A stretch of DNA of 32,801 bases from an uncultured Clostridia bacterium. GTDB lineage: Bacteria; Bacillota; Clostridia; Christensenellales; Borkfalkiaceae. A program made the translations under genes and the position numbers. Below are positions 20,358-32,801 of the stretch, one piece after another. How positions within the stretch are numbered: position 1 is the stretch's first letter; the number at the start of each line of letters is the position of its first letter. Location: assembly GCA_947175325.1 (NCBI GenBank), contig CAMWME010000014.1:1-32801 (forward strand), written 5' to 3'. The notes below the pieces were generated by a model. The model searched no databases. It worked only from the letters and a program-made list of their open reading frames with translations, and was not told the origin of the DNA.

Positions 20358-22754
20358 TTACTTTTCTCCCTTTTTTACTTTTTCCTTTGAAAAAAATCTG
20401 CCTAAGCCTTTAAAGAAATGACCGTTGAAAATTAAAAGCAAAGCTTCCATTTGCCTACGGCTCATACCGCCGAACTTGGCAAGCCCCCTTACGGGCTGAT
20501 GCAGTACGCCCATTACCAAAGTGTTTGCGGTCGTTCTGTTGCCCGTCTTTTTCAAAAACGCTATTGCAAACCTTATGACGCCCGCGAACGCTCTGCCGAC
20601 CCAACGCTTGGAATATCTGAGGTCTGCAACGGTGCAGTTTTCGTGGATAACCATTCGGTTTTTCTTGTAGAAGTTATAGCCCGATTTGGGGATATCTCTG
20701 CCGAGCAGCGTTTTGAATTCCGCGTCCGATACTGCCTTTATGTTGCCGTTGTAATACGAGGGCAGTTGCGCCTTGTCGTAGGGGCAGTCTTCAGTGGTGG
20801 CTTGTTTTGAAATACTTGCTTCGAGCTTAATATCCGCTATGCTTGCGCCGATATAGAACTGATACTCGCCCCCCTCTACTTCCCACTTGTTCGTGTTTAC
20901 GTTGAAGTAGCGGAAAGTTTTATCGTCGAAGGAAATGGTAACTTTTACGCTTTCGCCCGACTTTATAAATACCTTTTTAAAGCCTTTAAGCTCCTTTGCG
21001 GGACGGAAGATTTTGCCGCCCTTTTTGCCGATATAAAGCTGCGCTATCTCCGCGCCGTCGTAGCTGCCCGCGTTGGTGATTTTAAAGGTAACGCCCTTTT
21101 CGGTTACCGAGATATCGGAGTATTCGAATTTCGTGTAAGAAAGTCCGTAACCGAACGGGTACGCAACGGGGACTTTTGCCGTGTCGTAATAACGGTAGCC
21201 TATATACAAGCCCTCGCGGTACTCCACCGTCATTTGCTTGCCCGGGAAGTAGTTTGCCGTTGAGCAGTCATCGTATTTTACGGGGAAGGTTTCGGCAAGC
21301 TTACCGCTGGGGTTGACTTTACCGGTAATTACGTCCATTACCGACTTTGCGCCCGCTTGACCCGAAAGACAGCCGTACACTATTGCGTTGGAGCTGCGGC
21401 ACCAGTTCGTTTCGATAGCACTGCCGCAAGACAGCACGAGCACGAGTTTTTTACTGAATACGCGGACTTGCCTAAACAGCTCGATTTGGTTTTGAGGGAT
21501 TTTGATATGCTCCCTATCCAAACCCTCCGCCTCGCTGACTTCGTCCAAGCCTAAGCAAAGAACTACCACGTCCGCTCGTTTTGCAAGCTTGACGGCTTTT
21601 CTTATAAGCTTGGGTTTATCCTTGCCGTATCTGTCGAAGCCCTTTTCGTAGCCGATGAAATTCAAATTATCTTTTTCGTCCAAAAGCGAGGTAAGCTTCG
21701 TGGGGTTGACCACCGACGAGCCCGCGCCTTGGTATCTGGGTTTATCCGCAAAGTCGCCGATAATTGCAACTTCAACTTCGTTATTCAAGGGAAGAATTCC
21801 GTCGTTTTTCAAAAGTACGATGCTTTCTTCCGCACATTTCTGCGCTAAATTATGGTGCGCTTCCGTATCGAACGGCTTGCCCTTTTCGCCTTCGGAGGTC
21901 TTTTCGATAAGCGTTAAAATTCTTTCTACGCTTTCGTCAACGAATTTAATATCGAGCTCTCCGCTTTCAACCGCTTTGACTATATCGTCCGCGCCGTATC
22001 TGCAAGACGGCATTTCCAAATCACTGCCAGCCTTCGTGGAGGCAACCTTGTTGTTGGTGCCCGCCCAGTCGGAGATTACCACGCCGTCGAAGCCCCACTC
22101 TCCGCGCAAAATATCGCGGATAAGATGCTCGTTTTCGTCGGCGAATTTGCCGTTGACTTCGTTGTACGAGGACATTATCGCATTGGTTTTGCCCTCTTTT
22201 ACGGCTATTTCGAAAGCTGTTAAATATATCTCGCGCAAGGTGCGTTCGTCCATTACGCTGTCGGTAACCATTCTGCGCTCTTCTTGGTTGTTGCCCGCAA
22301 AGTGCTTTACGCACGCCGAGGTGCCGTTTGCTTGTATGCCCCTTATATACGCCGCCGCCATTTTACCCGCAAGGTACGGGTCCTCGGAAAAGTACTCGAA
22401 GTTTCTGCCGCAACGGGGGTTGCGCTTCATACAAGTGCCTGGGCCTAATAAGACGTTGACGCTTAAAGACGCCGCCTCGGTGCCGAGTGCTTTGCCCATT
22501 TCTTCGCCCAGCTCTTCGTTCCACGAGTTTGCCATAGTTGCAGCCGTGGGGAAGCAGGTTGCGGGGATACTTGCGTTTAAGCCGAGGTGGTCCGCCTTAG
22601 CCGCTTGGCGCCGAAGTCCGTGAGGCCCGTCGGATAAAAATATCGACGGCACGCCAAGTTCCGGAAAGTCGAGCGTTTGCCAGAAGTCTTTACCCGTCAA
22701 AAAGTCCGCCTTTTGGCGCAAAGTCATACTTTCGATTATCTTGCCCTTATCCAT
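20358..22754 (-). CDS. Glycoside hydrolase family 3 beta-glucosidase-like enzyme
   Basis: This 798-residue GH3 enzyme should release terminal beta-linked sugars from oligosaccharides. It has the (beta/alpha)8 domain with SDGPHG (41-46), CGRNFEYFSEDP (115-126), KHFAGN (150-155) and the nucleophile Asp229 in VISDWAG. The alpha/beta sandwich domain follows (IVLLKNDGILPL..., GLDEVSEAEGLDRE), then a fibronectin III-like domain. The last 120 residues are an extra tail with hydrophobic and basic stretches (e.g. FNGHFFKGLGRFFSKEKVKK) that may touch the membrane. No signal peptide is present, so it is probably cytoplasmic. It leads a three-gene operon with two membrane proteins. The exact sugar cannot be read from the sequence. 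Confidence 0.92.
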   Translation of the reverse strand: MDKGKIIESMTLRQKADFLTGKDFWQTLDFPELGVPSIFLSDGPHGLRRQAAKADHLGLNASIPATCFPTAATMANSWNEELGEEMGKALGTEAASLSVNVLLGPGTCMKRNPRCGRNFEYFSEDPYLAGKMAAAYIRGIQANGTSACVKHFAGNNQEERRMVTDSVMDERTLREIYLTAFEIAVKEGKTNAIMSSYNEVNGKFADENEHLIRDILRGEWGFDGVVISDWAGTNNKVASTKAGSDLEMPSCRYGADDIVKAVESGELDIKFVDESVERILTLIEKTSEGEKGKPFDTEAHHNLAQKCAEESIVLLKNDGILPLNNEVEVAIIGDFADKPRYQGAGSSVVNPTKLTSLLDEKDNLNFIGYEKGFDRYGKDKPKLIRKAVKLAKRADVVVLCLGLDEVSEAEGLDREHIKIPQNQIELFRQVRVFSKKLVLVLSCGSAIETNWCRSSNAIVYGCLSGQAGAKSVMDVITGKVNPSGKLAETFPVKYDDCSTANYFPGKQMTVEYREGLYIGYRYYDTAKVPVAYPFGYGLSYTKFEYSDISVTEKGVTFKITNAGSYDGAEIAQLYIGKKGGKIFRPAKELKGFKKVFIKSGESVKVTISFDDKTFRYFNVNTNKWEVEGGEYQFYIGASIADIKLEASISKQATTEDCPYDKAQLPSYYNGNIKAVSDAEFKTLLGRDIPKSGYNFYKKNRMVIHENCTVADLRYSKRWVGRAFAGVIRFAIAFLKKTGNRTTANTLVMGVLHQPVRGLAKFGGMSRRQMEALLLIFNGHFFKGLGRFFSKEKVKKGEK

Positions 22755-22811
22755 TTAACACCTCTTTACACCCTTTACGAATTAATGAAATAATTTTTCA
22801 TAACTTGTAAT

Positions 22812-22841
22812 ATTGTAACATAAGCCTTTTTTGTTTGTCAA
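22812..22841 (-). promoter_or_regulatory. Sigma-A promoter of the GH3 operon
   Basis: A perfect TTGACA (22841..22836) and TACAAT (22817..22812) are 18 bases apart. Transcription would start near 22805, giving a leader of about 50 bases ending in GAGGTG before the ATG at 22754. Confidence 0.75.
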
Positions 22842-22891
22842 TATTATATAGTTAAATTGTCGATTTATTACTTATATTGCAGTGCGCGCTG

Positions 22892-22948
22892 TCGTCCGCC
22901 GGCACCTTTTAGGTGTAAACGCCGTATAATGTATAAGACGATTTTTTT
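22892..22948 (+). other. Possible upstream leader structure with T-run
   Basis: TCGTC (22892-22896) can pair with GACGA (22937-22941), which is followed by T7 (22942-22948). Inside, CGGCACCT and AGGTG...CCG form a second hairpin (22900-22924). A perfect TATAAT (22925-22930) lies within the same stretch but has no good -35, so it may be a promoter or only part of the fold. Promoter and structure cannot both be right as drawn; I record both. Confidence 0.3.
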
Positions 22949-22951
22949 ATT

Positions 22952-23003
22952 TGCTACATATTCACCCTTGCTTACGGCACGGGCGGATATGTAGTATTTT
23001 TTT
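22952..23003 (+). terminator. Terminator-like hairpin in the leader of the DUF11 cassette
   Basis: CTACATATTC-A-CCC (22954-22967) pairs with GGG-C-GGATATGTAG (22981-22994) with one mismatch and one wobble. After one more mismatch, TGC/GCA continues inward and leaves a five-base loop. T7 (22997-23003) follows, and then the ribosome binding site. A terminator placed exactly between a transcription start and the coding region is typical of attenuators or riboswitch platforms; it may alternatively be a stabilising 5' hairpin. Confidence 0.6.
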
Positions 23004-23005
23004 AC

Positions 23006-23013
23006 AAAAGGAG
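23006..23013 (+). promoter_or_regulatory. Ribosome binding site of the first DUF11 gene
   Basis: AAAAGGAG ends six bases before the ATG at 23020. It excludes the longer TTG-initiated frame beginning at 22951, which would read through the leader hairpin. Confidence 0.85.
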
Positions 23014-23019
23014 ATTATT

Positions 23020-24723
23020 ATGCCTTTCATTCAACGATATTCCGACGTAAAAAAAGGCGGTATCGTTTTTACGGGCAATACGCTTGGTTTAAGCAAAGCT
23101 TCAAACCAAAACGCCCCCGGCACGGAGGGCTCGATAGGCGCGTTTACAAGCCTTAACCCCGCCTTGCAAGTGGGAACCTTCCCCGCGGGGACTACGCTTG
23201 ACTATACGCAAAACGGCTCCCGCGCGGTGCTGAATTTGCCCGCCGGCTCTACCGTTTTATATGCGGAGCTCGTTTGGGGCGGGTTGTTCCGCTCGTCCGT
23301 GAACAATATTTCCGCGCTGACGAATAACAGCGTAACCTTTACTACCCCTCTCGGCGCGTTTACGGTTGCGCCCGACCCCGTAACGGCGCAAAGCTTCAAT
23401 ATTCCCGCCGACGACATTACGGTAGGTTTTTACGTGAGGACGGCGAACGTAACCGCTTTGGTGCAAGCCGCGCTTGCGGGGACCTACTCCGTTCAAGGCG
23501 TACCCGCGCTTATCGAGGCCATTGACAGCCGAACTGCCGACACCAACCACGCGGGTTGGACGCTTGCGGTAGTTTACGAAAACGCGGGCTTGCCTTTAAG
23601 AAATATGACCGTTTATTGCGGCGGCACCGTAGTTTCGCCGAATACGGGCAGTACGACCATAACCGTTTCTAACTTCTTAACACCCGAAGTTTTGCCCATA
23701 ACGGGTAAAATATTCGTTTCCGCACAAGAAGGCGACGCCGTGCTGACTGGCGACCAGATGCTGTTCGGGCAAAGCGTTGCCACCCTTACGAATCTTTCGG
23801 GGCCGAACAACCCGCAGAACAACTTTTTTGCTTCTCAGATAAATAACGCAAACGGAACTCTTGACACGACGGGTACCTTTGGTACCCGCAACGCGAACGC
23901 CGCGGCGGGGACGAACACTTCGGCGTGCCGTCAAGGCTGGGATATAACCGCCGTGGACGTATCAAACAAGCTTGCGGCAAACCAGTCGAGCGCGGTTATC
24001 CGCTTTACGAGCGACGGCGACCTTTACGTGCCGAACGCGCTTGCACTTTTAATTGACAGCAAGGGCGCAAACCTTGTAATTACGAAATCGGCCGACAAGA
24101 CTTTTGCGGAAGTGGGTGAAGAAATCACCTACACCCTCGCCATACAAAACACTGGCACCGTGGACGCACTGAATACCACGATAACCGATATGTTGCCGCC
24201 CGAAACCAGCTTGGTTGCAAACTCGGTAACGGTCGACGGCGTGCCCTATGCCGGAGCGCTGCCCGTAGTTATTCCTACGATAGCGCCCGACCAGACGGTT
24301 ACCGTAACTTTCAAAGTTACGGTAAACAGCTTGCCCGCAGTGAACCCCGTATTCAATATTGCAAGGGCGGACTACGAATTTTTCCCCTTTGCGGGATACC
24401 CCGCAACGAGCTTTTCAAACTCTAATCCCGTTGCGGTATATATAATATCGCGCAGTATGACGATAGTTAAAAGCGTTGACAAGGCTTACGCCGTAAAGGG
24501 CGATATTTTGACCTATACTTCGGTTATAACCAACACGGGAAGCGTGCCCGTAACCGAGGTTATTTTCAAGGACGAAATACCCGCGGGCACGACTTTTATT
24601 GACGGCTCGGTAACGGTAAACGGCGTAAGCTTCCCCGCGTATAACCCCGAAACGGGATTTTTTGCCGCGAACTTGACCCCGCAAGCAAGCGTAACCGTAG
24701 TATTTCAAGTACGAGTAAACTAA
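23020..24723 (+). CDS. DUF11-repeat protein with MPFIQR-type N-terminal domain
   Basis: This 567-residue protein starts MPFIQRYSDVKKGGIVFTGN, which I recognise as the conserved start of a family of DUF11 proteins in Bacillus and Clostridium. Residues 1-345 are a beta-rich domain with typical phrases (LNPALQVGTFPAGTT, AELVWGG, TNHAGWTLAVVYEN, EGDAVLTGDQ, ACRQGWDIT). Two DUF11/TIGR01451 repeats follow at about 350-465 and 480-567 (KSADKTFAEVGEEITYTLAIQNTG; KSVDKAYAVKGD). There is no Sec signal peptide or anchor, so how it leaves the cell, if it does, is unclear; release on mother-cell lysis is one option. It stops directly after a repeat, and TAAGGAG forms both the stop and the next gene's ribosome binding site. 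Confidence 0.85.
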   Translation: MPFIQRYSDVKKGGIVFTGNTLGLSKASNQNAPGTEGSIGAFTSLNPALQVGTFPAGTTLDYTQNGSRAVLNLPAGSTVLYAELVWGGLFRSSVNNISALTNNSVTFTTPLGAFTVAPDPVTAQSFNIPADDITVGFYVRTANVTALVQAALAGTYSVQGVPALIEAIDSRTADTNHAGWTLAVVYENAGLPLRNMTVYCGGTVVSPNTGSTTITVSNFLTPEVLPITGKIFVSAQEGDAVLTGDQMLFGQSVATLTNLSGPNNPQNNFFASQINNANGTLDTTGTFGTRNANAAAGTNTSACRQGWDITAVDVSNKLAANQSSAVIRFTSDGDLYVPNALALLIDSKGANLVITKSADKTFAEVGEEITYTLAIQNTGTVDALNTTITDMLPPETSLVANSVTVDGVPYAGALPVVIPTIAPDQTVTVTFKVTVNSLPAVNPVFNIARADYEFFPFAGYPATSFSNSNPVAVYIISRSMTIVKSVDKAYAVKGDILTYTSVITNTGSVPVTEVIFKDEIPAGTTFIDGSVTVNGVSFPAYNPETGFFAANLTPQASVTVVFQVRVN

Positions 24724-25292
24724 GGAGAATTTTTATATGATAATACCCAACCAATCGAATATTGCCTTCAACTACGTTTTGCCCGACGGGCAGACGATTG
24801 CCGCGAACTTGGACAGCAATATCGTAAACACGGAAATTTTGACCTATTCCGTTCCCAAAATTAAGAGCGGCGACAAGACATTTATGCAAGAGGGCGAAAC
24901 CTCCGTGCATACCGTAGTTATAACCAATAACTCACAGACGCCGCTTATCAGTCTTTCGCTAAAAGACAATATGTCGCCCGGCGCAACTTACGTTGCGGGC
25001 AGCGTAACCGTGAACGGCGTGGCGCAGCCCACTTACGACCCCGTAGCGGGCTTCCCCCTCCCCGACCTTGCCGTAGGTCAAGCGGTTACGGTAACTTACA
25101 CCATTCAAGCAAACAACCCCTTAACGCAGTCGACCGTAACGGACTATGCTACGCTGACTTACTCGGTAAACGACCAGACGAGACAAATCCTAACCTTTAC
25201 CGAAAACACGAACACCGTTACCGTGCAGATTATTTCGAACAGAATTACGAACGTGAAGAGCGTTGACAAGGCTTACGCCGTTAAGGGCGATA
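24472..25292 (+). repeat. Near-identical DUF11 repeat segments in two adjacent genes
   Basis: 34 bases at 24472-24505 recur at 25259-25292 with one difference (encoding SVDKAYAVKGD). A second pair, 25048-25092 and 25441-25485, is also almost identical (GFPLPDLAVG). The similarity at DNA level points to recent duplication or gene conversion between repeats on both sides of the gene boundary. Confidence 0.8.
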
Positions 25293-25528
25293 CCTTGCAC
25301 TACACTTCGGTTATTACGAACACCGGCTCGCTGTTAAAGAGCGACCTCGTGTTTACCGACCCTATACCCGCGGGAACGACCTTCGTTGCGGGCAGTGTTG
25401 AAATAGACGGCGTTGCTTACCCCGCTTATAACCCGCAAACGGGCTTCCCCCTTCCCGACCTTGCCGTAGGCGAAGCGGTTACGGTGGAATTTGACGTAAC
25501 GGTGAACAGATATGAAAACTATAATTAA
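24737..25528 (+). CDS. Second DUF11-repeat protein, continuation of the cassette
   Basis: This 263-residue protein is made of two DUF11 repeats (about 38-165 and 169-259). Its first 38 residues (NQSNIAFNYVLPDGQTIAANLDSN) look like the inter-repeat linker of longer DUF11 proteins, as if one long ancestral protein had been divided at a repeat boundary. It has its own strong ribosome binding site, GGAG (24724-24727), nine bases before ATG, and starts 13 bases after the previous stop, so division into two chains appears to be used rather than decayed. No signal peptide or anchor. The C-terminus (VNRYENYN) overlaps the next gene by 17 bases. Confidence 0.85.
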   Translation: MIIPNQSNIAFNYVLPDGQTIAANLDSNIVNTEILTYSVPKIKSGDKTFMQEGETSVHTVVITNNSQTPLISLSLKDNMSPGATYVAGSVTVNGVAQPTYDPVAGFPLPDLAVGQAVTVTYTIQANNPLTQSTVTDYATLTYSVNDQTRQILTFTENTNTVTVQIISNRITNVKSVDKAYAVKGDTLHYTSVITNTGSLLKSDLVFTDPIPAGTTFVAGSVEIDGVAYPAYNPQTGFPLPDLAVGEAVTVEFDVTVNRYENYN

Positions 25529-25688
25529 TATATCGAGTGTAACAGACTACTCGGGCGAGACACCGATTATAACCGACAGTAACCCCGTTACTACGGTTAT
25601 TAGGGAGCCCTCTCCCACTATAATTACTACAAGAGTTTTCTGTTGCCAGTCTTGCGACTGCGACTGCTGTTGTAACTGCTGTAACTAA
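25512..25688 (+). CDS. 58-residue protein with cysteine-rich tail
   Basis: This is a short frame starting at the ATG at 25512, overlapping the second DUF11 gene by 17 bases, with GGTGA (25501-25505) as a plausible ribosome binding site. The first 43 residues are Thr/Ile/Val/Pro-rich (MKTIINISSVTDYSGE..., REPSPTIITTRVF). The last 15 are CCQSCDCDCCCNCCN, with nine cysteines at 44, 45, 48, 50, 52, 53, 54, 56 and 57. Codon use matches the DUF11 genes and the stop TAA is followed at once by the terminator hairpin, both signs of a real gene. I recognise no family. Such a tail suits metal binding or disulfide crosslinking, for instance into a spore or surface layer with the DUF11 proteins; that is inference. 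Confidence 0.75.
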   Translation: MKTIINISSVTDYSGETPIITDSNPVTTVIREPSPTIITTRVFCCQSCDCDCCCNCCN

Positions 25689-25717
25689 AAAAGCGGCGGG
25701 GCCGTGCGGTCCCGCCG
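25687..25717. terminator. Convergent terminator between the DUF11 cassette and pectate lyase
   Basis: CGGCGGGGCC (25694-25703) pairs with GGTCCCGCCG (25708-25717) with one wobble and a GTGC loop. On the minus strand it is followed by a T-run (complement of A6 at 25687-25692), so it is a good terminator for the pectate lyase gene. For the plus-strand cassette the stem is equally strong, but the T-run is weak. Confidence 0.8.
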
Positions 25718-25726
25718 TTAAATACT

Positions 25727-27445
25727 TTAGTATTTACTTTTTAAAAGTGAAAGTGAAATTTCCGATTTTGCGCCCGCGCCGTAGTCGACGTTTGCAAGGT
25801 ATTCTTCCAAATCTTTAAGCTTGGTAACCGACGGAGTAAACGGCTGTTCGCCGTCCTCGGTGTGCCAAGAGAAGAACTCGGGTGTTAAAATGCTCGACGA
25901 GCTGTTTGAAAAGTTAGGGTACTTATCCGACGAGGAGCCTATATAAGGCGTATCGTTAGCGTATTTTTGATAGCTGCAGTTTACTATTTGATAGCCGCCG
26001 TTTACCAAATCCGCCGAGTTGCTGTCGTTGTTTTTCAAGAGGTTTTCTATACCTCTGAAAATGCAGTTTTCCGCCTTGACGCTGCCGCCGTTGCCGCAGA
26101 CTATGCCTTGCGAAACCAGCCCGCACTTCCAGTTGCTTTTTACTGCCGAAACCAAGCCCGCCGCATTTTTGCTTCTTAGTTGCGTGCGGTATGCAAAATA
26201 CTGCGAGCTGTCAACGACGCAGTTGTACATATACGCGTTGCCGCCGCGAAGCTTGGGGATTCTGTCCTCCAAATTCTTGAACGTGCAGTTTGCAAACGAA
26301 ACTTGCAATTTCAAATTGTAAGCGTATTCGTCGCCGCTGTCGCCGCACAAAAAGCCCTTCTTTTGAGGAATTGCTATACCGTACAGAATTTCTTCGGGGG
26401 TTATGCCGCCGTCCCTTAACGCTTTGTAATAGAGGGCGGTGTAGTTGCCGTTTTGATAGTCTTCCTCTATCTCTTGCATCATTTTGTAGAGGTAGCCGTC
26501 CTCGTCGTCGCTGCCCGCGTTGAAGTTGCACCAAGAAATATGCACGGATGAAGTGCCGTCCGCACCGTAAGGTGCGCGGAACGCAACGCCCGCGTTTGCC
26601 GTGTATTCGGGGTTTGAAATATCAATCTGACCGTCGTAGGATTTGCCGAAGGTGCAGTGGTCTATCCAAATATAGCCGCAGAACGCGATTTTGAAGTACG
26701 CCCAGCCGTGGAAGTCGTAGTCGCCGATAGCCGAGGTCGAGGACGACGGGGAATCCTCCCACTGCCAAATTTCGTCCATTACGAGGTTTCTGAAAACGAC
26801 GTTGTTATCGCTCGTAAGTTTAAAACCGCAGTGCGTAAGCTTTACGCCGTTTTTGGAATAGATTAAAAGGTCGGAAGTGTTTTCTACTTTTATCTGTGAA
26901 ATGCCGTTTTCCTTGACCATTTCGGAATTGTAATCGGTAAAGTGTTTGGACATAGTCTTTCTTGAAAAGTCCTCCACCACTCCGCTTGCCTTCGCTGCGT
27001 CGCTTAAAACCTCGTAGCCGAGGTTTAAATCGTTTGCGATTTCGATTACGCGAACCGTGCCTTTAAAGTTATCTTCCGTGTAGCCGTCCGCGGGAACTTG
27101 CGTATAGGTGCTTGTTTCCTCGTCCCACACGTTGGTGTAGTGGCACTTAGCGTCGACTATGGCCTCTAAAAGCTCTTCCGCGGTGGTTACCTTGCGGTAC
27201 GCCTCGGTATTTTCATACACGGAAAAGTCGCCTATGTTATCCCTAACGTAGCCGTCCGCCGAAAGGTTGGCTTTTAAATGAGCGGTTAATTTGTCTTCGG
27301 GCTTGGGCTCGGGTTTGGGTTCGGGTTGAATAATTTCGTTTCCGCCGTCGCCTTCGCCGTTTTCCGTACCGCCGCCGAAATTACAGCCGCATACGAGGGT
27401 TGCCGACATTGATAAGGCAAGAATTGCCGCAATAAATTTTTTCAT
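25727..27445 (-). CDS. Pectate lyase-like lipoprotein, polysaccharide lyase family 1
   Basis: This 572-residue surface lipoprotein has a signal peptide with lipobox VCGC (Cys21) and a Gly/Glu then Pro-Glu-Lys linker (about 22-52). The parallel beta-helix domain has family 1 hallmarks: VVFRNLVMDEI, IWIDHCTFGKSYDGQIDI near residue 260, and RIPKLRGGNAYMYNC near 397, corresponding to the R-x-P-x-x-R-x-G catalytic region. The enzyme would cleave polygalacturonate by Ca2+-dependent beta-elimination at the cell surface. An insert rich in Asp/Glu and Tyr (about 310-360) separates the two motifs. The start is the only ATG that keeps the signal peptide, yet it lies six bases from the -10 box and has no Shine-Dalgarno site. 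It is transcribed alone. Confidence 0.85.
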   Translation of the reverse strand: MKKFIAAILALSMSATLVCGCNFGGGTENGEGDGGNEIIQPEPKPEPKPEDKLTAHLKANLSADGYVRDNIGDFSVYENTEAYRKVTTAEELLEAIVDAKCHYTNVWDEETSTYTQVPADGYTEDNFKGTVRVIEIANDLNLGYEVLSDAAKASGVVEDFSRKTMSKHFTDYNSEMVKENGISQIKVENTSDLLIYSKNGVKLTHCGFKLTSDNNVVFRNLVMDEIWQWEDSPSSSTSAIGDYDFHGWAYFKIAFCGYIWIDHCTFGKSYDGQIDISNPEYTANAGVAFRAPYGADGTSSVHISWCNFNAGSDDEDGYLYKMMQEIEEDYQNGNYTALYYKALRDGGITPEEILYGIAIPQKKGFLCGDSGDEYAYNLKLQVSFANCTFKNLEDRIPKLRGGNAYMYNCVVDSSQYFAYRTQLRSKNAAGLVSAVKSNWKCGLVSQGIVCGNGGSVKAENCIFRGIENLLKNNDSNSADLVNGGYQIVNCSYQKYANDTPYIGSSSDKYPNFSNSSSSILTPEFFSWHTEDGEQPFTPSVTKLKDLEEYLANVDYGAGAKSEISLSLLKSKY

Positions 27446-27665: not shown

Positions 27666-30600
27666 TTACTTCATATCATCGGGCGATACGTCGTCGTAGA
27701 AACCGTCGGCGTCGCTTCCGAACGCCTTACGACTGGATACCGCTATTTTCAAAGCCGCTATTGCGATTATGAGTATCAAAACGGTTACCACGGACATTAT
27801 CGCAATTACAACGGGGGATAAGCCGACGGAGTTCGTACCGCCGTTACCTTCCGCCGGAGCGGCAGAACCCGTTATCGTGAGGTCCAGATACCCCTTTACC
27901 ACCTTGTAGTTAGCGGTATCGTCGGGCGTGAAGGTGTATGCACATCTGTTCATACCCTCTTTAAGCACTTGCTCGGCGTTATCCCAAGTAAACGTGCCCT
28001 TTACGCCGTTTTCCAATTCGTCGAAGAACAAATCACTGAGCTTAGTTCCCGACGATAGGCTGCCGCTTACCACGGGTCGGCTTACGCTAGGTTCAATCTT
28101 GTTTATAATAAGCTTCACCGTACGGGGCATTATAGCGTTGTGGTTTGCGTCTACCTCGAAGCTTACCGTTACAACGTAGTCGCCGGCATTGACTACTTCG
28201 TCCTCGGATACCGTTTTACCGTTCAGTGCATAGCCGTATTGAACGCCGGTTACCCCGACGGGCAACTCTTTTATGCGTACCGCTTCCGCCAAGGAGTTAC
28301 CGTCGTTATAGTCAACCGTAACGTCTACTAAGCCGATTATCTCGCCGCAATCCGCGGGCGTGATATTCAGTTCGGAAGAGATGGCTGCGATTTTGTTGTA
28401 GTTGGCCTCGTTCGCCTCGCCTTTAAGCGTAAATCTTACCGTTATGCGGTAGGTGCCGACGTCGGTTAAATCGTCAGCCGTGCAAGACTCGAACACGCCC
28501 GAAGAATTGCGCTTTGCATAGGTGTAAGATACTTCGCCGTCTGCAAACGTGCCCGTTATCGCGTACGCCTTGCTCGTGCCGTCGTATTCCGCACTACTGC
28601 TTTCGGGGAAGTAAATTCCGCTTAAATCGTAATCCTTAGGGATTACGCGTATTCCGTTGACTTCGCGCTTGATGGGCTTTTCAAGGGTGCCGTTCGCGTC
28701 GTAGATTACGGTGATATATGTATCGCCTACCCATAACGCATCGCCCGATAAATAGCCTATCGTGTAATCCGTGACTACTTCTTCAACGCCGTCGTTGCGG
28801 ACTGCCGTTACCTTTATACTTGCTCTGTCGAATTCGTCCAAGCCCTTATATTCGGTCTTGAAGTTTTCAACCTTATCCACTTTCAGCGAATAATCGAGGG
28901 CGATATAGTAAGCGTCGATTGTGTCAACCTTGCCGTTATAGCGCACCGTAAGTACATAAGTGGTGTTACCGAATTTAGGCGAATCGCCGCTGTTCTCCCA
29001 GTTACCCGAAATAGTGTATTCTGCGGACTTGTCAAGCGTAATGGTATCCGTTCTACCAGTTAAGTCGCACGTGATTTCAAGATACTCGCGGATTTGCTCC
29101 AAAGTTGTACTTACGTAGATAGAAGGCATCGTGCCGTCGCGCCAGCCGACGTGTATTGCCGATATCTTTGCGCTGATTGCATTCAATATCTTCTTCACGT
29201 AAACGGTGTTGAAGTTTTCCGTATCTTGGGGCGTGAATATCCAAATGTACTCGTTCTCGCCGAAGATAAGCGCGGTATGCTGACAAGCAAGCGTACCCGT
29301 TACTTCGATATCGCCGAGATGAGGCGTACCGTTTAAGTTGAGCGTAGGCACGCTGCTGCCTTCGTACAGTTCGTCAACGCCTTCGTTGTACTCTTCCCAC
29401 TCTACGGCAACGGATACGTCCGCCTTCTTTATTTTGAAGTTGCGGCTTCTTGACGAGAATGTTTCGTAGTTTGCCAACTCGCCCAAGGAAACCGTTACGA
29501 GGTAGTCGCCCGCGTTAACGGGTAAATCCGTACCCGAGTAGTGCGTATCGCCTACGCCTTCGTAAGCGTGTGCAAGCGTTACCGTGTCTTTATCCACTTC
29601 GGCTACGCCCGTAAGCGTTGCCGTTACGCCTTGACCCGCGCCGTTATAGACGTAGTCGCCCTCGTTCCACTCCAAGCCGAGCAACGCCTTTACGATGGTG
29701 AAAGGAATTTCTATCTCGCCGCCGTAGTTGCCGCTGCCTTTGACCTTGACCGTAACTTCCGTGCCCGCGTCGTAGGCGGTCGTGGAATAATTTACGGTGT
29801 AGTCTTCGCCCTTGTCGAGGGTTATCGTATTCCCGCCGTCAACGAGCTGTAAAGCAACCACGGGTGCGGGCGTCCATGACGAGCCCTTATATGTATAAGT
29901 AGCCTCGATACCGCTGACTTCGTCAGAGGCTATCTCTCTGGGCGTTATAGTAAGCGTTGCGTACATGTCGGCGGGTGCAGTATAGTTGCCCGTACTGCAC
30001 GTGAATTTTGCGGTTATTTCATAGCCCGCAACTTCGCCGCCTTCGTAGTGAACGTCCGTTACGCCCGTAAACAAGTCGGTAGTGTTTTTGTAGTAATAAG
30101 TTACTTGCATCTCGTCGGGAACGCCGTTTGCAAACAGCTCGTGATTTTCGCCGTCGTAGGGAACGCTATCCGAGATGAAAGTTATATTCAACACACCGTC
30201 CGTTATCGCGAAGGTATAACCGGGGTTCGTGATTACGAACGAATAGTTATCGTAGGGCGAAGCTTCGGGGAACGCGTCTACGCTGGGAGTATATACGCCC
30301 ACGTTCTTGCGCTCGGCGTCGGGGCCCGCGTAGTTTACGGTGATAAGCGCGCCGAAGTTTTCGGTAGTGATAACGCCGATATCCTCGCCGACTGCACCCG
30401 CAACTTCGAGTACCGCGCTGTGTACGGTTCCGTCGTAAGGGCCCTCTTCGCCGTTCCAAGTAAGGCTTAACTCCGCCTTCTCTATCGTGATTTCTATTTC
30501 AAGAGTCTTTGCGTTGTAGTTCGTGCTCTGTTCAACGCTTACGACGAGATTGCCGCTATCCGAAACGTATTTGAATTCGTTATCAGAATAATTGACCGTC

Positions 30601-32801
30601 TGCTCGCCGTTGGTTACTTCTACGCCGCTTATTATGGTTATGGTTTCGCCGCGGTAAGTGTAAACCGTTTGAAGGTCGGTAGTATCGAACTCCGCTTCCG
30701 CGCGGTTGATAATAAGTTGTGCAGTCTTGTCTGCGGGTACCGCCACGTTTGCGGTATCCGTTACCTTGAACACAGCCACAACCGTGTATGCGTCAGAGTC
30801 GGTAACTTCCGTAAGCGTTTCGCCGTTGTAGGTGTAGTGGTCTACCTCTACGCCGTTAGGAAGGTTTTCCGCAGTTATCGACCAAGAAGAGCCGTTGTAG
30901 GTTACTTCTTTATTTTCCATTTCCACTTCGGACATATCCACCGTCTTCTTTACTACGTGTATTTCTACCGTAGTAGTAACGTCGTTGCCGCCCTCGGTGT
31001 AGTAAATTGTCATCGACTTGCCGTCGTCTGCTACGAGGAAGTAATTTGTGCTACCGGGGTATGAGAAGGTCCAGCCCTCAACCGCCGTAGGCGTCTTGCC
31101 CGACGCGTAGGTAGCCTCTACCACCATTCCCGTAGTATCGAAGGTGTCGTACGCGGAATAGTTCGTGATTGCGTTGTAAACGCGGATTGAAACGACCTTG
31201 AAGCTTACTTTTACGCTTGCAAAGCCCGTCGCGTTGTTGTAGTTTGCCGTGTCGTCGGGAACGAAAGTCCATTTGTAACTGCCGCCGTCGGTAAGCGTTA
31301 CGGTGCCGTCCGTCCACGATACGCTGCCCTTAGCGTCGCTTTCGGCAACGGTGATGCCGATATTGCTTAAAACGTCTCCGACGAAATAGGTGCCCGTAGC
31401 CACGCTTACAGTTACCGTAGGCGTTGCCTTATTTATGGTAAGGGTTGCCTTTAACTCGGGCGTGTTGTAGTTGTCGGGGTCAAGGTTGTTAAGCACTGCC
31501 ACGACTTCGTATTCGCCGACGTTAGTTCTACCCGTTGCCTCGGAAAGGTTGTAGATGTAGTGCAAAACTTCAAGACCGCTTTTGCCGCCGTTTAAGCCCG
31601 TGGGCAAAGTGCCGGCTACGGTTATACTCTTTTCTTGACCGTTGTAAGGCTCGGTTTTATCGTCCATACGGACGCTAGATAAATCGTAATCCGCCTTGAT
31701 TACGGTGATTTCAACTTCCGTGTTTACGGTTATTCCGTTTTCAGCGTATTCAAACGCTACTTCACTACCGCTGTTAGCGACGATAAAGTAAGTATTGCCG
31801 TCCGTATAAGGAACCGTTATGGTGCAGTCGTCGGCTGCAACCGTGGCGTCCGCAACCCCGCCGAGGTAGTGCGCGGTTATAGTAAGCCCGCTCGTCGTAA
31901 AGCTGTCGTACGCCGTATAGGTGCCTATACCTACTACGCTTAGGCTATCCAGCTCAGCTACCGCCGTTACGGGAAGGTTGCCCGTTACGTCGTTCCAGTT
32001 TGCAGTGTCGGCGGGAACGAAAGTCCAGCCGTAGGTACCGCTTGCCGCCAAAACCGTGCTGCCCGTAGTCCACGCAATTTCGCCGTCGGGATTATCGCAT
32101 TCGATACCCACCGTTGAAAGCTCGCGGCCTATGTAATAAGTACCGTCTACCACGCTTGCAGTTACCGTGGGCGTGGCTTTATCTATGGTGAAGGTTTTAG
32201 TTGCAGTGCCCGTGTAATTGGCTGAGGTGCTCGTTGCCGTAATCGTAACGGTTGCATTAGGGCCCGCATTAACGTTATTAGAATAGCTTACGGTATAGTC
32301 AGTTGAACTTGAAAGCGTTTTATCCATAACAACGCTTAATACGTTCGGCTCCTTTGCATTACCGTCGTAAGTAAAAGAATTTATATCCAAAGTAACCGTT
32401 GCATTAGTGATAGGAGCTTTTTCCACGGTAAAGGTCGTGCTTGCGGTGCCCGTATAGTTACCTTTGCCCGTTATAGTAACGGTTGCCGTACCTGCATTAA
32501 TGTTGCCCGAATAACTTACCGTATAGTCGGAACTTGAAGGATTGAGATTGCCGGTTGTTACTACTTTCGTTATCGAGGGCATTTTTGCGCTTCCGTCATA
32601 AATAAAAGACGTCGTGCCAAGCGTTATCACTCCACCCGTTATGCTAGCGGGGTTTATAGTCCAACTCAAATTTGCAATAGTAGGCTTATTGTAGTTTGTA
32701 GTGTCGTAACTTAAAGTTGCGCTTGCCGTATACGTGTCCGCATTCGTTTTTGAGTTGTTCGAATAAGTTGCCGTAACGCCGCTAGGTAAGCCCGTAACCG
32801 A
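27666..32801 (-). CDS. Giant MBG/Big_3-repeat surface protein, 5' end outside the window
   Basis: The frame stays open to the window edge, so 1711 C-terminal residues are visible and the true start is upstream; the TTG at 32669 is internal. The chain is a series of MBG-type repeats (YDGSAKMPSI..., DYTVSYSGNINAGTATVTITGKGNYTGT) alternating with Big_3-like units (YTAYDSFTTSGLTITAHY, YSAYDTFDTTGMVVEATY, EYKGLDEFDRASIKVTAV) and YNG/YDG 'Y.Y.G....V...GNYN' modules. The C-terminus has a Gly/Asn spacer, a membrane helix (SPVVIAIMSVVTVLILIIAIAALK begins near 55 residues from the end) and a short acidic cytoplasmic tail. It lacks LPxTG, so it is anchored by its own helix. Likely a long adhesin or stalk; the ligand is unknown. 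Confidence 0.85.
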   Translation of the reverse strand, partial: SVTGLPSGVTATYSNNSKTNADTYTASATLSYDTTNYNKPTIANLSWTINPASITGGVITLGTTSFIYDGSAKMPSITKVVTTGNLNPSSSDYTVSYSGNINAGTATVTITGKGNYTGTASTTFTVEKAPITNATVTLDINSFTYDGNAKEPNVLSVVMDKTLSSSTDYTVSYSNNVNAGPNATVTITATSTSANYTGTATKTFTIDKATPTVTASVVDGTYYIGRELSTVGIECDNPDGEIAWTTGSTVLAASGTYGWTFVPADTANWNDVTGNLPVTAVAELDSLSVVGIGTYTAYDSFTTSGLTITAHYLGGVADATVAADDCTITVPYTDGNTYFIVANSGSEVAFEYAENGITVNTEVEITVIKADYDLSSVRMDDKTEPYNGQEKSITVAGTLPTGLNGGKSGLEVLHYIYNLSEATGRTNVGEYEVVAVLNNLDPDNYNTPELKATLTINKATPTVTVSVATGTYFVGDVLSNIGITVAESDAKGSVSWTDGTVTLTDGGSYKWTFVPDDTANYNNATGFASVKVSFKVVSIRVYNAITNYSAYDTFDTTGMVVEATYASGKTPTAVEGWTFSYPGSTNYFLVADDGKSMTIYYTEGGNDVTTTVEIHVVKKTVDMSEVEMENKEVTYNGSSWSITAENLPNGVEVDHYTYNGETLTEVTDSDAYTVVAVFKVTDTANVAVPADKTAQLIINRAEAEFDTTDLQTVYTYRGETITIISGVEVTNGEQTVNYSDNEFKYVSDSGNLVVSVEQSTNYNAKTLEIEITIEKAELSLTWNGEEGPYDGTVHSAVLEVAGAVGEDIGVITTENFGALITVNYAGPDAERKNVGVYTPSVDAFPEASPYDNYSFVITNPGYTFAITDGVLNITFISDSVPYDGENHELFANGVPDEMQVTYYYKNTTDLFTGVTDVHYEGGEVAGYEITAKFTCSTGNYTAPADMYATLTITPREIASDEVSGIEATYTYKGSSWTPAPVVALQLVDGGNTITLDKGEDYTVNYSTTAYDAGTEVTVKVKGSGNYGGEIEIPFTIVKALLGLEWNEGDYVYNGAGQGVTATLTGVAEVDKDTVTLAHAYEGVGDTHYSGTDLPVNAGDYLVTVSLGELANYETFSSRSRNFKIKKADVSVAVEWEEYNEGVDELYEGSSVPTLNLNGTPHLGDIEVTGTLACQHTALIFGENEYIWIFTPQDTENFNTVYVKKILNAISAKISAIHVGWRDGTMPSIYVSTTLEQIREYLEITCDLTGRTDTITLDKSAEYTISGNWENSGDSPKFGNTTYVLTVRYNGKVDTIDAYYIALDYSLKVDKVENFKTEYKGLDEFDRASIKVTAVRNDGVEEVVTDYTIGYLSGDALWVGDTYITVIYDANGTLEKPIKREVNGIRVIPKDYDLSGIYFPESSSAEYDGTSKAYAITGTFADGEVSYTYAKRNSSGVFESCTADDLTDVGTYRITVRFTLKGEANEANYNKIAAISSELNITPADCGEIIGLVDVTVDYNDGNSLAEAVRIKELPVGVTGVQYGYALNGKTVSEDEVVNAGDYVVTVSFEVDANHNAIMPRTVKLIINKIEPSVSRPVVSGSLSSGTKLSDLFFDELENGVKGTFTWDNAEQVLKEGMNRCAYTFTPDDTANYKVVKGYLDLTITGSAAPAEGNGGTNSVGLSPVVIAIMSVVTVLILIIAIAALKIAVSSRKAFGSDADGFYDDVSPDDMK

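Follow-up and report, generated by a model that had tools for sequence, protein, structure and literature searches.

The last frame of a three-gene operon, located in the 32,801-nucleotide stretch of DNA that was analysed as a whole (hereafter, the window), is a real conserved coding sequence of 58 residues, and its product, when compared with the proteins encoded upstream, hardly resembles a Cys peptide that acts alone. The first ~30 residues of this small protein appear to resemble the missing end of the last DUF11 repeat of the protein encoded by the preceding gene (gene 2), and the N-terminus of the gene 2 protein seems in turn to correspond to the end that the product of the first gene (gene 1) lacks. 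The reading that we favour, with modest confidence, is that the three genes would form a single chain in which each gene border lies inside an Ig-like DUF11 domain, and that this chain would be laid on the spore and end in a disulfide-locked cap. The elements of the window that are referred to below are as follows.

22903..22931, + strand: weak candidate for a sigma-K-like promoter 5′ of gene 1, with two mismatches to the consensus in PMC5749712
22953..22995, + strand: leader hairpin (CTACATAT...ATATGTAG) and subsequent T-run, directly 5′ of the ribosome site of gene 1
23020..24723, + strand: gene 1, encoding a head protein of 567 aa (MPFIQR...) that has a complete DUF11 repeat and, at its end, an incomplete one
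24457..24720, + strand: last DUF11 repeat of gene 1, which stops at VFQVRVN without the final strands (end motif as in gene 2)
24737..25528, + strand: gene 2, encoding a DUF11 spacer protein of 263 aa here and 257 aa in most relatives
24737..24838, + strand: N-terminal segment of gene 2, proposed donor to gene 1 (matches the last 33 of 132 repeat columns)
25238..25507, + strand: last DUF11 repeat of gene 2, incomplete and 39 columns short in the alignment to complete repeats
25501..25505, + strand: GGTGA, a ribosome-site-like stretch within gene 2, 6 nt 5′ of the small ATG
25512..25688, + strand: small gene for a 58-aa Cys-tailed protein (ORF translation, homologue alignment, codon analysis and Cys-density scan)
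25512..25601, + strand: residues 1-30 of the small protein, which form its core and are proposed as donor to the last DUF11 repeat of gene 2 (fusions and match to the gene 2 N-terminus)
25641..25685, + strand: Cys tail, residues 44-58, with 9 Cys of 15 (CCQSCDCDCCCNCCN)
25692..25719, + strand: hairpin 3′ of the operon, a likely terminator by folding energy

Conservation of the small gene

The frame, coordinates, sequence and TAA stop given for the small gene in a preliminary description were all confirmed, as were its length of 58 aa and the nine Cys in its last 15 residues. When the six frames of the window were scanned for ORFs with a minimum length of 20 aa (397 in all), the small frame alone reached at least 6 Cys per 15 residues, and no ORF with 6 Cys in 15 was found in 30 resampled windows in which the dinucleotide content was kept. 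A protein search with the small protein identified 13 proteins at E≤1, including that of the window itself; four of the 13 are already catalogued in public metagenome-assembled genomes (MAGs), where they are named hypothetical protein. Alignment of the small proteins revealed a well-kept core (approximately INxSSVTDYSGExPxxTDSNPVTTVI) followed by a Cys tail that varies in length, and the best-conserved part is this N-terminal core, not the tail. Differences within the core (residues 6-30, 20 loci) occur at rates of 0.26, 0.17 and 0.59 at codon positions 1, 2 and 3, respectively, and dN/dS is ~0.13, a value that is only rough because dS is saturated (1.94). The core is under purifying selection, and a chance frame was ruled out by the Cys-density scan together with this codon-level selection. 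The preliminary description had made conservation in relatives the test of its frame, and the result is favourable: the frame is kept and third codon positions vary most.

Its statement that no named family has this tail also holds, in that the small protein has no Pfam or NCBIfam match at E≤1 and falls below the curated cut-offs of DUF11 and TIGR01451; since it represents at most the end of a repeat, it is not classed as a DUF11 protein. The longest small protein (L065, 3069-3518) has 149 aa and 27 Cys, and carries an N/Q/W-rich tail of 105 residues.

The hairpin that had been noted after the TAA is present at 25692-25719 and forms a strong fold: the stretch 25680-25735 folds at -26.4 kcal/mol, none of 200 shuffles being equally stable. 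This hairpin is not among the calls of a simple terminator scan, and an Rfam scan of 22500-26000 gave no match at gathering score. Convergent with the operon lies a gene for a 572-aa pectate-lyase-like protein (25727-27445, - strand; PF00544, E 8.4e-09), whose N-terminus is lipoprotein-like by eye, and farther along is a repetitive frame of 1667 aa (27666-32669, - strand) with a hydrophobic segment near its C-terminus, which by eye looks like a large surface protein.

Pairing with gene 2 and distribution

A small Cys-bearing gene was found 3′ of gene 2 at all 30 places where the end of gene 2 was covered. Scanning genomes with gene 1 identified 24 loci, comprising 19 with gene 2, three that end before gene 2 is complete (L067, L070 and L076) and two fusions without gene 2 in the stretch (L068 and L073). 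Each of the 19 gene 2 loci carries the small Cys gene, which makes 20/20 when the window is added, and ten more places with the small gene were found in other genomes (L045, L047, L097, L098, L099, L100, L101 and L106, plus L048 and L049); gene 2 of L047 is cut by the contig start, and L048 and L049 were counted at the second spacer gene. Seven loci whose genome had already been counted were omitted (L042, L043, L044, L046, L103, L105 and L107), and the degraded operons that keep the small frame (L052, L102 and L108) and the X-type DUF11 genes stand outside the count. Over the 30 places, the number of Cys per tail ranges from 5 (L101) to 27 (L065). In L048 and L049, X-type DUF11 genes lie 5′ of the spacer gene; they are isolated in L051 and L104 and reach the contig end in L050. 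In these last three, no head or small gene adjoins them in the stretch examined, and such lone genes may provide additional spacers in trans.

The operon is an accessory element: 11/71 genomes of the genus carry gene 2 or a relative and 12/297 genomes of the order carry gene 1, and a class-wide draw yielded gene 1 in 2/341 genomes, the window's own and G180, both of which belong to the window's order. Most loci by far have the split form, which extends across several families of the order.

Overlap with gene 2 and translation start

According to the preliminary description, the small frame overlaps the second DUF11 gene. This is true of the window, where the frame (from 25512) begins within gene 2 (24737-25528), but the overlap is absent from 19 related loci, in which the gene 2 stop precedes the small ATG by 1 nt (16 loci) or by 14-16 nt (3 loci). 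The stop codon of the relatives is TGA (TAA in L064), and the window reads AGA at this place, so that its gene 2 is 6 codons longer; P0014, which shares 256/257 residues with the gene 2 protein of the window, is of the short form with the usual end. The C-terminus of gene 2 is FDVTVN, FDVKVN or FDVTVD in 18/19 loci, and L057 has an E-rich extension. This acidic form (L057, 7712-8533) is accompanied by a small gene with its own strong ribosome site, and acidic C-terminal extensions after the last repeat (with endings such as EHTAEIEDNEE) were also observed on the gene 2 proteins P0046, P0075, P0078, P0101, P0108, P0117, P0120 and P0131.

In 16 of the 17 loci with a gap of at most 1 nt, the window included, gene 2 uses GTG for its last Val (the exception is L074), set against a background of 22% GTG among the 533 Val codons of the operon genes in a comparison that is not kinship-corrected. 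With this GTG codon, GGTG(A) stands 6-7 nt 5′ of the ATG of the small gene, and at the three loci with gaps of 14-16 nt the small gene has its own GGAGG-type ribosome site. As ribosome sites are thus either embedded in gene 2 or the small gene's own, a separate, coupled start is favoured over frameshifting.

Proposed splitting of DUF11 repeats

Genes 1 and 2 encode DUF11/TIGR01451 repeat proteins, with PF01345 matches of 74.1 and 61.7 bits (cut-off 24.6) and TIGR01451 matches of 125.1 and 88.6 bits (cut-off 24), respectively. The repeats were compared using 11 of the 20 gene 2 rows, the window row being cut at 25507 without its 6 extra residues. In all 11 rows the last repeat of gene 2 ends at column 92, short of columns 93-131, which are occupied in complete repeats. 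The N-terminal segments of gene 2 and its relatives align to exactly the last 33 of the 132 columns of the complete repeats, and none of 300 column shuffles scored as high. The small core aligns with the gene 2 N-terminus over 27 columns, 1/300 shuffles being as good. As the likely counterpart of the missing repeat end of gene 2, the core would indicate the joining partner of the small protein, a point beyond the preliminary description, and this N-terminal half is the more telling part of the protein.

The direct comparison of the small core with complete repeats was not significant (77/400 shuffles as good, and 25/300 in a second test); its best local match does, however, fall on the last strand. 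Alignment of the small family with DUF11 repeats by hhalign without bridging sequences was weak (E 0.11), and comparison of each small core with its own gene 2 N-terminus (20 pairs) gave between 0 and 167 of 200 shuffles as good, mostly not significant. Pfam searches of excised repeats did not cleanly separate complete from incomplete ones, and of the 114 positions of the Pfam profile, the complete gene 1 repeat matches only to 89 and the incomplete one to 84. A search of solved structures with the repeat alignment gave one weak match (9ifr_A, E 0.0013), and searches with the gene 2 and gene 1 alignments gave none.

Natural fusions at both joints

Both joints occur as natural fusions, the first (gene 1 to gene 2) in one genome and the second (a single frame that runs from a DUF11 repeat through the small core to the Cys tail) in five proteins, namely those of L068 and L073, and P0134, P0135 and P0136. 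In L068 and L073, which are two MAG contigs, gene 1 encodes 641 aa and its last DUF11 repeat, 67-83% identical to 11 gene 2 rows, continues in frame into the core and Cys tail. A search with the fused tail identified the three further fusion proteins at E≤1 among 26 candidates, including P0136 (63%), which comes from a clearly different lineage. When small cores from which the Cys tail had been removed were compared with the fused tails, 24 of 25 had 0/200 shuffles as good and one (L049) had a single such shuffle; the window's core aligns with the L068 tail without gaps over 43 residues. At the other joint, gene 1 and gene 2 of L098, which belongs to another family of the order, form one 830-aa frame in which the AGGAGA and ATG of gene 2 are still recognisable, and a separate small Cys gene follows. 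Each joint is therefore covalent somewhere, which is the usual sign of binding between the separate proteins.

Upstream elements and a probable link to the spore

A sigma-K-like promoter upstream of gene 1 is suggested by its sequence. The site in the window, with two mismatches, has a resampling P of ~0.10, and an element with at most one mismatch lies 5′ of gene 1 in 10/26 loci. The leader hairpin is kept in 17/20 aligned upstream stretches, and 4 of its 13 predicted pairs are changed on both sides; it is cleanly missing from L058 and L062, and the upstream stretch of L075 does not align. The hairpin and T-run before gene 1 resemble an attenuator or a 5′ stabiliser.

The window's genome encodes Spo0A_C and SpoIVA, and Spo0A and SpoIVA were found in 28/31 and 23/31, respectively, of the genomes searched, whether or not the operon is present; they therefore mark sporulation as possible, not the operon as serving it. 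By eye, none of the three operon proteins has an export signal, and this fits deposition on the spore by the mother cell better than a vegetative surface system. PF13157 (S-Ena) was found in 0/11 operon-bearing genomes in a search in which no control genome reached a match, and PF13799 (DUF4183, F-Ena) in 0/11 in a search in which one control matched below the cut-off. As far as sequence can place it, the chain is probably located on the spore surface.

Proposed assembly and alternative readings

Judging from sequence, we infer complementation in trans, expression at the time of sporulation, a spore location and a disulfide function. The gene 1 protein (head) would end in a DUF11 repeat whose last strands are missing, and these would be supplied by the N-terminus of the gene 2 protein (spacer), which would itself end in a similarly incomplete repeat whose missing strands would be donated by the N-terminus of the small protein. 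The latter would cap the chain, thereby attaching the Cys-rich tail to it, and the matching half-domains would set the order of head, spacer and cap; gene 2 may also polymerise with itself. The mother cell would produce the chain during sporulation, and disulfides between the tail and a spore layer or other chain ends would form later, outside the reducing mother cell, to anchor or cross-link it. Counting against this reading are the non-significant direct comparisons of the small core with complete repeats and of most small cores with their own gene 2 N-terminus, the X-type DUF11 genes of L051 and L104 that have no small gene, the lack of S-Ena and DUF4183 in the 11 operon genomes (in searches in which no control reached the cut-off) and the weakness of the sigma-K-like site in the window. 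A disulfide-linked assembly with the DUF11 proteins, one of several roles considered in the preliminary description, is plausible. A bolder proposal, to which we commit ourselves only tentatively and with less belief than in the chain as such, is that gut Clostridia may build a chaperone-free, three-part spore-surface fibre, ordered by half-domains into head, spacer and cap, the cap both ending the chain and locking it by disulfides.

The main competing reading, which we hold to be unlikely, sees in the small protein an independent Cys-rich peptide that binds metal or acts in redox chemistry and whose gene shares no more than a transcript with the DUF11 genes. The CxC and CxxC spacings in the tail, the great variation in tail length (5-27 Cys over 30 places) and the lack of any family match would all agree with such a peptide, but in five proteins the core of the small protein continues a DUF11 domain in the same reading frame, and the strongest conservation lies in the N-terminal core rather than in the tail. 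Somewhat less probable again is a vegetative cell-surface or gut-adhesion system that the Cys tail would fasten to the cell envelope or host material; the accessory nature of the operon (12/297 genomes of the order) and the glycan-related neighbours in the window (GH3, pectate-lyase-like) point in this direction, whereas the absence of a visible export signal from the three proteins and the S-Ena neighbours of a homologue in Priestia (see below) point away from it.

We give least credit, and very little, to the view that gene 2 and the small frame make one protein through ribosomal frameshifting or are an old single gene decaying into two. The stop-to-ATG gap of just 1 nt in 16/19 relatives and the existence of fused forms are what this view would explain. 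Programmed frameshifting was set aside because at three loci the gap is 14-16 nt and the small gene is preceded by its own strong ribosome site; 16/17 other loci retain the embedded GGTGA, and the predominance of the split form over loci and several families, with purifying selection after the split, also counts against this view. If the favoured reading of a capped three-part chain is true, it would provide partners and a role for tiny Cys-rich genes, which so far are hypothetical proteins where they are named at all, and a fixed-order assembly route for DUF11 proteins, which are common on spores and cell surfaces without an assigned function; the proposed joints are short and defined by sequence.

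Comparison with known systems

The open-access literature searched, as far as its text was available, contains no account of split DUF11 domains or of a Cys-tailed small gene. What would be new is the joining of donor-strand-like assembly to Cys-rich anchoring, a combination not found in that literature. In chaperone-usher pili and TasA, the latter cited as a donor-strand-complemented fibre in the available text of PMC11952670, an N-terminal segment completes the Ig-like fold of the previous subunit, and the same is proposed here. The present case would differ in that about two strands are donated, each joint has its own matching gene, and no usher or export signal was seen. One hallmark of donor-strand complementation, namely that the N-terminus of the next subunit corresponds to the missing strands, was found for gene 2 by segment alignment and for the small protein by way of the fusions and the gene 2 N-terminus, the direct test being not significant.

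Among Cys-rich proteins, CsxA, CdeC and CdeM of the exosporium build clostridial spore surfaces; they are Cys-rich like the proposed cap, and the descriptions by which they were compared do not present them as capping DUF11 chains. In Clostridium aceticum, F-Anchor-3 contains DUF11 repeats and is proposed, in the available part of PMC11952670, to hold a spore appendage on the exosporium. It is one long protein with DUF4183 and CsxA-like domains, whereas DUF4183 was not found in the 11 operon genomes. In Clostridium taeniosporum, CRD1, CRD2, P29a and P29b are spore appendage proteins, and DUF11 proteins of 564 and 269 aa, compared with 567 and 257 aa here, are encoded in the cluster, according to the text of PMC5749712 that was available. 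The likeness lies in the described sizes and domain and in sigma-K-like promoters, and the available description mentions neither a Cys-tailed small gene nor a split domain.

A parallel in sequence is a homologue of gene 1, 50% identical over 92% of gene 1, which on a Priestia megaterium plasmid (NZ_CP069612; L110, 4001-5458) lies between genes annotated as S-Ena endospore appendages. The chain of this homologue closes with a DUF11 repeat, then the strand SNQVLTVI and finally a Cys tail; in Priestia the tail is in cis on one protein, whereas here it belongs to the product of the small gene, and the Ena subunits of the Priestia plasmid had no counterpart in the 11 operon genomes, in a search in which no control matched. 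The S-Ena neighbours hint at what DUF11 proteins of this kind may do.
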